Shown here piece after piece: positions 11,186 through 13,291 of a DNA stretch of 64,000 nucleotides. Under the pieces are notes generated by a model. The model did not search any database. It had not been told where the DNA came from and saw only the letters and a program-made list of their open reading frames with translations. A program made the position numbers and the translations under genes. The number at the start of each line of letters is the position of its first letter. Within the stretch, counting starts at the first letter, position 1. Origin of the DNA: Gammaproteobacteria bacterium (GTDB lineage: Bacteria; Pseudomonadota; Gammaproteobacteria; Steroidobacterales; Woeseiaceae); assembly GCA_029884165.1 (NCBI GenBank), contig JAOUIH010000011.1:1-64000 (forward strand), in the 5' to 3' direction.

Positions 11186-11563
11186 CTAATTGAGCGCCGA
11201 GCGCGGGGCAGTCGGCCGGCGAGACAGGAAGCTGACCGACAGTCCACCCGGCGCTTCCAGGAAGTAGATGCGCTCGCCGTGCTGTTCGATCGGACCCGCA
11301 GGATCCAGCCCGTTCGAGCGTGCCCGGTCGGCCCACGCGTCGGCATCGTCCACGACGACCTGCAGCATCGCACCCGTCGGCATGCCCGGTGATTCGGGCC
11401 AGATCTCGACCCAGCTGTCCCCGGCCGGGAATATGCCTCCCGCAAACGGCTCGCCCGCCGCCTCCGGGACGTTCTGGGGCAGACCGAGTCCGTCGGCCAG
11501 GAACCGGCTGAGTCGGGCGGCCTCCGGGCTTACATAACAAAAGCGGATGCCGATGACCTTCAC
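11186..11563 (-). CDS. VOC (glyoxalase-fold) family protein
   Basis: A 125-residue protein of the vicinal-oxygen-chelate fold: an N-terminal beta-alpha-beta unit (VIGIRFCYVSPEAARLSRFLADGLGL) and a second unit ending GERIYFLEAPGGLSVSFL, typical of glyoxalase/bleomycin-resistance-like proteins. Candidate metal ligands include WVEIWPE and the late Glu of FLEAPGG. The substrate is unknown. Its ATG overlaps the stop of the upstream TerB gene (ATGA), so it is coupled to that gene. Confidence 0.82.
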   Translation of the reverse strand: MKVIGIRFCYVSPEAARLSRFLADGLGLPQNVPEAAGEPFAGGIFPAGDSWVEIWPESPGMPTGAMLQVVVDDADAWADRARSNGLDPAGPIEQHGERIYFLEAPGGLSVSFLSRRPTAPRSALN

Positions 11564-12054
11564 TCGACGGCACCGCTGCCGGGATCGTCATCGGCCGAGG
11601 TCTCGGCGAAGTATCGGTCGAACGCGCGATGCCGCGCTTCAGGCGTAATTCCGATCAGCTCGCAGGCCCTGTTCATCCGTTCGATCTCGTCGGCGTCGGC
11701 TTCGCCGTCGGCGGTGGTCACCTTCATCATCATTACGGCAATATCTTCCCGCTCGGCATCGCTGCGCATCGCGCCGAGCTGACGGATCAGGCTCTCCAGG
11801 TCCGGATTCGCGGCAAGGTCAGAGATCGCCCTCGTCAGCAGCGCCAGCGACTCGGCGCTGCGCAGCCCGAAGCGCTCGCTGACCAGCTCGAGCATGCTCT
11901 CCGTCTCCCTGTCCGTGATGGCGCCATCGCCCTTGGCGACGAAGACGAGCAAGGCAGCCACGAGATACTGAGCGTCGTAGACCTCCGTCTCGCCAGCCGT
12001 CTCGATGATCAGTGCGTCGCCTTCGATGCGTGATGTCTTGCTGTCGTCGGTCAT
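11560..12054 (-). CDS. TerB-like protein
   Basis: A 164-residue mostly helical protein with the TerB pattern: LVAALLVFVAKGDGAITDRETESML, then the second helical repeat IAVMMMKVTTADGEADADEIERMNRACELIGI. The acidic loops GDGAITDRE and ADGEADADE are the presumed metal-binding sites of this fold. TerB domains are linked to tellurite and other stress responses and to membrane-associated complexes; no ter partner genes lie nearby. It precedes and overlaps the VOC gene. A second TerB-type gene is at 18351-18827. Confidence 0.83.
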   Translation of the reverse strand: MTDDSKTSRIEGDALIIETAGETEVYDAQYLVAALLVFVAKGDGAITDRETESMLELVSERFGLRSAESLALLTRAISDLAANPDLESLIRQLGAMRSDAEREDIAVMMMKVTTADGEADADEIERMNRACELIGITPEARHRAFDRYFAETSADDDPGSGAVE

Positions 12055-12076: not shown

Positions 12077-13291
12077 TCAGTGCCGCCCTACCGCGCCGGC
12101 CCCTATCGCCGCCAGCGCCGGTGTACCAGCATACTCCATTGCCGTCCGCAGCTCGTTCGTCAGGATCTCGAGCGCCCGGTCCACGCCGGCCTGGCCGAAT
12201 GCACCCAGGCCCCAGATATAAGGCCTGCCTATACAGACCGCATCGGCGCCGAGCGCCAGCGCCTTCAGTATATCGGTACCGCGCCGGATGCCACTGTCCA
12301 TGAGCAACGTCACCCGCGCCTGTACCGCGCCGGCCACCTCCTCGAGGCTCTCGATCGCACCGCGCCCGCTGTCGTCTGCGCGCCCGCCATGGTTCGACAC
12401 GATGATGCCGTCGACGCCGTGCCGTATGCACAGTTCGGCATCTTCCGCGGTCACGATGCCCTTGACGAGCACCTTCAGGTCCGTCGCATTGCGCAGGCGA
12501 TCGACGAACTCCCAGGTCAGGCTTGCCTGCGCCAGGTCGTCGTCCGACATCGCGACGCCCGAATACATCGGCTTGGGCCGGCCCGCGATGGCCGGGTCCT
12601 CGTGGCAGACGGCGCAATCCCGCGTATCACGACGTATCCAGCGCTCCAGGGTGTTGCGATCGTTGCCGCTGGCAGGAAGGTCTACCGTCAGGACGACCGC
12701 CGGGCAGCCGGCCGCCTCGGCGCGGCGCAGGAGGTACTCGGCGACATCCCAACGATTGCCCGGGTAGAGCTGCTGCCAGACCGGCGCTGCGCGCGCCCTG
12801 GCCACGTCCTCGACCGCGACCGAGCTGACGTTGGAAAGTATCTGCAGGTGATTGCGCTCTTTTGCGGCGCGCGCCGTCGCGAGTTCGCCTTCGGCATGCC
12901 AGGCCTGCTGCGAACCGACCGGGCACAGCACGATCGGCGTCGGCCACTCCTGGCCGAATACGGTCGTCCGCAGGTCGATACCGGAGACATCCACGAGCCG
13001 ACGCGAGCGCAGGTAGTACCGGTCGAATGCGCTGCGATTCGCCCTGTATGTCCCGTCGCCATTGGTGCCCGTCATCAGGTAGCCCCAGTGCGCCGGCGGC
13101 TGCAGTCCTGCTGCCGTCGCCTCGAGGTCGAAGACGTCGATCGCCTCCGCCGCCGTCTTGACGGGCTCTCCCGCGTCGGCCGCCACGTCGGCCAGCGCCG
13201 CGCGCACGCCGGCGAGCGACCCGTACAGCGGGCTCGCGGCAAGAAACTGCAGGAAAGCGCGCCTTGCGTTGTCGGTGACCCTGTCATTCAT
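12077..13291 (-). CDS. FMN-dependent alpha-hydroxy-acid oxidase/dehydrogenase with Tat-like start and CxxCH motif
   Basis: A 404-residue member of the lactate/glycolate oxidase family, which oxidises 2-hydroxy acids with FMN. Catalytic elements are present: HWGYLMTGTNGDGTY near residue 68, TVDLP near 202, VLVKG with Lys277, and SNHGGR with His301 and Arg304, then LLMDSGIRRGTDILKALALGADAV for the FMN phosphate. Two features are odd. Residues 10-16 (RRAFLQF) sit ahead of a mildly hydrophobic stretch and resemble a twin-arginine signal. Residues 226-230 are CAVCH, a c-type heme motif, in the insert before RPKPMYSG. If both are real the enzyme would be periplasmic and could pass electrons to heme. 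Electron acceptor and substrate are unproven. Confidence 0.88.
   Translation of the reverse strand: MNDRVTDNARRAFLQFLAASPLYGSLAGVRAALADVAADAGEPVKTAAEAIDVFDLEATAAGLQPPAHWGYLMTGTNGDGTYRANRSAFDRYYLRSRRLVDVSGIDLRTTVFGQEWPTPIVLCPVGSQQAWHAEGELATARAAKERNHLQILSNVSSVAVEDVARARAAPVWQQLYPGNRWDVAEYLLRRAEAAGCPAVVLTVDLPASGNDRNTLERWIRRDTRDCAVCHEDPAIAGRPKPMYSGVAMSDDDLAQASLTWEFVDRLRNATDLKVLVKGIVTAEDAELCIRHGVDGIIVSNHGGRADDSGRGAIESLEEVAGAVQARVTLLMDSGIRRGTDILKALALGADAVCIGRPYIWGLGAFGQAGVDRALEILTNELRTAMEYAGTPALAAIGAGAVGRH

Follow-up and report, generated by a model that had tools for sequence, protein, structure and literature searches.

The 64,000-nucleotide stretch of DNA analysed here (the window), from a gammaproteobacterium of the family Woeseiaceae, encodes an FMN-dependent 2-hydroxy-acid dehydrogenase or oxidase (P0001) with a CxxCH motif inside its active-site lid (Table 1). 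A first-pass annotation of the window had reported a 404-residue open reading frame at 12077–13291; the frame is real and runs on the minus strand, which the annotation left unstated. A TerB-family gene follows closely, and the two genes probably share one transcript. Among 64 neighbouring ORFs on the same strand, a set picked greedily and to that extent a guess, Pfam models assigned TerB to 10, DUF1801 to 6 and SpoU to 3, with the rest scattered; tried as a guide to the substrate, these adjacent families gave no clue.

Table 1. Features of the enzyme locus in window coordinates
Feature	Position	Strand	Basis
FMN-dependent 2-hydroxy-acid dehydrogenase with CxxCH, 404 aa	12077..13291	-	PF01070, AlphaFold2, fold match
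Predicted Tat signal region, residues 1–34	13190..13291	-	RRxFLxFLAASPL conserved; TatC in own genome
Twin arginines Arg10-Arg11	13259..13264	-	RR pattern in 60/64 CxxCH homologues
His68, proposed second axial heme ligand	13088..13090	-	63/63 with CxxCH, 2/76 without
Tyr71, catalytic	13079..13081	-	Aligns with Tyr40 of the lactate oxidase from Aerococcus viridans
Loop 4 (beta4-alpha4), residues 205–259, active-site lid holding the motif	12515..12679	-	Lactate oxidase alignment
CAVCH, residues 226–230, proposed heme c attachment site	12602..12616	-	CxxCH here in 64/142 homologues
Lys277, active-site Lys	12461..12463	-	62/64 CxxCH proteins
SNHGGR, residues 299–304, including catalytic His301 and Arg304	12380..12397	-	63/64 each
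TerB-family gene, 22 bases downstream of the enzyme gene	11560..12054	-	PF05099, E 9e-20; kept in close relatives

P0001 matches the FMN_dh model PF01070 with 371.3 bits against a cut-off of 24.9 and retains the whole catalytic set (Tyr71, Tyr176, Asp204, Lys277, His301 and Arg304), bearing out its first-pass assignment as an alpha-hydroxy-acid oxidase homologue. Its AlphaFold2 model (pLDDT 89.7) has the glycolate oxidase fold by structure comparison (Z 47), and the nearest solved structures are ordinary glycolate, hydroxyacid and lactate oxidases, with none from the CxxCH clade seen among them. Against the NCBIfam equivalogs for L-lactate oxidase and LldD, the protein stays far under the cut-offs of TIGR02708 (200.7 of 645.5 bits), NF008398 (201.5 of 550) and NF033901 (217 of 376). 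We read it as a variant FMN 2-hydroxy-acid dehydrogenase outside the named equivalogs that would carry a heme. Tyr71 is kept in 63/63 of the CxxCH group, and the two exceptions at Lys277 are probably frameshifted copies (L034 and L039). Each of these two CxxCH copies, both from metagenome bins, is spread over two reading frames, as in broken genes or assembly errors. The same genome encodes an ordinary FMN_dh paralogue (L050, contig C282), 29% identical and lacking CxxCH; the best match in a plasmid collection is from Methylobacterium bullatum (48.8%), at a place where the record annotates no gene.

The substrate would be a 2-hydroxy acid, perhaps one larger than lactate, because Gly126 replaces the Ala95 of lactate oxidase with which it aligns; Gly occupies this position in 53/64 of the CxxCH group. 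According to a title cited in PMC7039449, the substitution A95G turns lactate oxidase into a long-chain hydroxy-acid oxidase.

The CAVCH that the first-pass annotation had read at residues 226–230 is present in P0001 (bases 12616–12602 on the minus strand). In 20,000 shufflings of P0001, at least one CxxCH arose in 19, a figure that is weak by itself because a genome encodes thousands of proteins. A lone CxxCH is weak evidence too, since two others occur among the 348 open frames of at least 100 codons in the window, and it is conservation that decides. One of these two, a CDICH at window position 2073 (plus strand) in an 877-codon open frame, looks by eye like a UvrA-type zinc motif.

Several comparisons indicate that the CxxCH of the window enzyme is not a chance motif. 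First, 149 related genomes were searched with the whole protein, the motif not being used as a seed; this yielded 29 new loci (L052–L080), and 26 of them have the CxxCH, the exceptions being L075, L079 and L080. Second, 64 of 142 distinct homologues carry CxxCH at the same position of the loop, with 29 different xx pairs, in a set pooled from this relatives search, a class search, a phylum search and a genome-contig search that was partly seeded with DCAVCHED and so biases upward the counts that include its loci. The alignment kept 142 of 153 matches, after removal of rows that were identical or shorter than 280 aa; three loci outside it (L001, L006 and L025) are presumably identical to rows kept under other names. 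Third, pairwise identity among clade members has a median of 49% and a minimum of 33%. Variation of the Cys and His residues among homologues had been named in the first-pass annotation as the mark of coincidence; we find CxxCH conserved and the xx residues free. Seven xx pairs are shared between the clade and the cytochromes c of the same genome, a comparison that is no real test.

The motif travels with a second feature. The N-terminus of P0001, MNDRVTDNARRAFLQFLAASPL, contains N-A-R-R-A-F-L-Q followed by a mildly hydrophobic stretch in the hydropathy profile, a twin-arginine-like start just as first described; by eye, and as a guess, the signal would be cleaved after ALA. The first-pass annotation had proposed asking whether homologues keep the Arg-Arg start along with CxxCH; both are present in 60 of the 64 CxxCH proteins. 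In three of the remaining four (L017, L039 and L082) the true N-terminus is missing from the data, and in L003 the arginines are absent at the start codon chosen for analysis. An RR-like start also occurs in 13/78 homologues without CxxCH. The Tat profiles TIGR01409 and PF10518 match 8/38 and 5/38 clade members, all weakly, and neither matches P0001 at E 1. TatC is encoded in the same genome, and we infer that the window protein is periplasmic and Tat-exported.

A third feature emerged from the alignment columns. In the CxxCH group 64 columns are conserved to at least 95%, and seven of these are rare (at most 25%) elsewhere: Ala50, His68, Arg98, Cys226, Cys229, His230 and Phe365. Only His68 and the CxxCH residues are strictly invariant among the seven. 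Counting rows in which the column is filled, and with L075 placed in neither group, His68 is present in 63/63 CxxCH proteins and in 2/76 others (L133 and L143), so that, unlike the CxxCH group, 74/76 CxxCH-less PF01070 relatives lack it. A smaller set of 74 homologues had given 57/57 against 0/17; L133 and L143 were added by the larger set. The nearest relatives without CxxCH are also without His68, and in L075, the lone group member lacking the motif, the sequence reads SxxCH, His68 is replaced by Arg and Tyr71 by Ala. In the P0001 model His68 lies in a predicted helix (residues 66–73), three residues before Tyr71, which would put the two side chains roughly on one face. This pattern of conservation makes His68 a candidate distal ligand, probably in a bis-His heme with His230 proximal. 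Arg98 and Phe365 might pair with the heme or pack on it, which is a guess.

On a tree of 140 rows, built from an alignment stripped of loop 4, of residue 68 and of the N-terminal columns, one group of 63 rows comprises 62 CxxCH proteins and the degenerate copy L075. The CxxCH label changes twice on this tree, against a mean of 46 after shuffling; support for the branch is moderate (SH-aLRT 92, from a quick search). Because all carriers form one clade, the co-conservation described above amounts to a single gain plus a single joint loss and not to many events. Record titles place the group in six phyla (Pseudomonadota, Acidobacteriota, Gemmatimonadota, Myxococcota, Verrucomicrobiota and Spirochaetota), although single phylum labels may be wrong because most records are metagenome bins. 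Its sister group of seven proteins (L031, L033, L079, L080, L083, L084 and L085) shows Tat-like starts but lacks both CxxCH and His68. Export thus seems, from these sequences, to have been gained first and the motif second, and the seven may be exported relatives that use another acceptor. Tandem FMN_dh pairs with RR starts and without CxxCH occur in Acidobacteriota (L036:5878-8153, L041:5884-8144 and L035:3346-5027).

The first-pass annotation had placed the motif in an insert before RPKPMYSG. The motif is indeed there, and the insert corresponds to loop 4, which forms the lid of the active site; this identity, like His68 and the single clade, lay beyond what the annotation could see. In the lactate oxidase of Aerococcus viridans, this loop forms a cover that closes on the active site and is frequently disordered, and Tyr40 binds the substrate carboxylate (PMC4908395). 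Because loop 4 is mobile and often disordered, the CxxCH should be reachable after folding, and the equivalence of Tyr71 together with the position of loop 4 would set both proposed ligands near the mouth of the active site. The motif loop has a pLDDT of about 57–71 and no helix in the P0001 model; in the AlphaFold2 model of L025, the homologue from Methylobacterium brachythecii, the motif, there at residues 253–257, forms a short helical turn (pLDDT about 70).

Taken together, we think it likely that P0001 is an FMN L-2-hydroxy-acid dehydrogenase that is exported by Tat, bears one heme c on its lid, with His230 and His68 as the likely bis-His pair, and hands electrons to a cytochrome c. The enzyme would fold with FMN in the cytoplasm before export, and the periplasmic cytochrome c maturation system would then fix a single heme c to the flexible lid, loop 4, through Cys226 and Cys229. 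His230 would coordinate the iron proximally, and His68, which sits on the N-terminal helix one turn from Tyr71, would be the likely distal ligand; with this pair the heme would span the gap from lid to barrel next to the active site. The substrate would give FMN two electrons, which the heme would take singly and pass on to a cytochrome c.

A heme c at CxxCH with a distal ligand other than His68 (Met242 of the KPM motif, a residue of another subunit, or none, leaving a high-spin heme) is unlikely, though it deserves the most serious hearing of the alternatives; His68 would then serve substrate binding or lid closing. Met242 lies in the same loop as the motif and is found in 51/64 CxxCH proteins and in 1/65 others. 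As a universal ligand, however, it was rejected, for it varies in 13/64 (Asn in 10, Thr or Gln in 3), whereas His68 is invariant.

CxxCH is also found in zinc proteins. A structural site for zinc or a similar metal, in which Cys226, Cys229, His230 and His68 pin the lid to the barrel with no heme, has four conserved ligands on offer, yet we regard it as improbable. The RR start that accompanies the motif would fit a periplasmic location, the residues between the cysteines change freely (29 pairs), and an exposed periplasmic CxxCH is recognised by a CcsBA-type synthase with little other sequence (PMC8112865). A redox-switchable disulfide between the two cysteines, tuned by His230 and locking the lid, would suit the CxxC form of thiol-disulfide motifs and a probably periplasmic location; it leaves the invariance of His230 and His68 unexplained, and we give it very little weight. 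That the motif is a coincidence in an ordinary cytoplasmic oxidase is barely credible, despite the two other CxxCH in open frames of the window, given its conservation through a clade with the divergence reported above.

A short peptide is enough for bacterial CcsBA, which adds heme to CXXCH peptides of 9 to 20 residues and more; it requires both thiols and the His, whereas a flanking helix is dispensable (PMC8112865). The genome of the window encodes CcmH and so uses System I, to which we would extend the CcsBA peptide result by analogy; it also encodes PF01578 proteins and has 26 Cytochrome_CBB3 matches above the cut-off. Co-occurrence with the Ccm machinery was discarded as a test for lack of power, PF01578 being present in 33/33 carrier genomes and 99/100 control genomes. 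No cytochrome c domain model scores on P0001, and Cytochrome_CBB3 matches 2/38 clade members weakly (best E 0.021). At one locus only (L002:43-4933), genes for a PQQ dehydrogenase and a cytochrome c stand directly upstream of the CxxCH FMN_dh gene, which is followed by an alpha/beta hydrolase gene, an arrangement that fits a periplasmic electron chain.

Among known enzymes, the preferred reading of a lid-borne heme c brings P0001 close to flavocytochrome b2, the yeast L-lactate dehydrogenase (EC 1.1.2.3), which has the same FMN barrel. In that enzyme Tyr143 lies at the heme interface. Its heme, however, is bound non-covalently in an N-terminal cytochrome b5 domain, whereas P0001 has its CxxCH inside loop 4; only about 48 residues stand ahead of the barrel, and a Pfam search of P0001 at E 1 returned no cytochrome b5 domain (PF00173). 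In flavocytochrome b2 the heme passes the electrons of FMN on to cytochrome c (PMC8491902, PMC8348568). We propose that the window enzyme works in the same way but, lacking the cytochrome b5 domain, is not a flavocytochrome b2. With glycolate oxidase, lactate oxidase, LldD and mandelate dehydrogenase (PF01070) it shares the fold and all catalytic residues.

Magnetochrome proteins (MamP, MamE, MamT and MamX) likewise carry heme c on a very short stretch, with the sixth ligand supplied by a PH motif whose His lies 5–9 residues before CxxCH (PMC3971196). No PH occurs in the residues preceding CAVCH of P0001; His68 lies 158 residues before the first Cys, in a different helix, and the protein concerned is a flavoenzyme. 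Engineered dehydrogenase–heme c biosensor complexes pursue the same goal of direct transfer from flavin to heme c (PMC9915066, PMC8348568), but they do so with man-made added domains; the window enzyme would be a natural one-domain version. We lean, by a narrow margin over even chances, towards a more specific picture: a domainless natural flavocytochrome c, convergent with flavocytochrome b2 and present in six phyla, whose lid-tethered heme would be added after Tat export of the folded flavoprotein and take His68, from the other side of the active site, as a ligand, coupling lid closing, substrate binding and electron exit.

A literature search that covered few subscription papers found no description of a CxxCH-bearing or periplasmic FMN dehydrogenase, and a survey of the enzyme class (PMC8491902) contains none of the terms CXXCH, periplasm and signal peptide. 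The joint conservation of export signal, heme motif and His68 across many distant bacteria suggests a type of enzyme, so far undescribed, in which electrons from hydroxy acids pass to a heme of its own. If this is true, a cytochrome function would have arisen from a handful of loop substitutions with no domain fusion, and a folded Tat cargo receiving heme c would pose a testable question about cytochrome maturation. The family would also offer a natural template for lactate-type biosensors, for which engineers now fuse heme c domains (PMC9915066, PMC8348568). For the bacteria themselves, it would mean that 2-hydroxy acids can enter respiration from the periplasm, in many species whose relatives of this enzyme are annotated only as alpha-hydroxy-acid oxidases.
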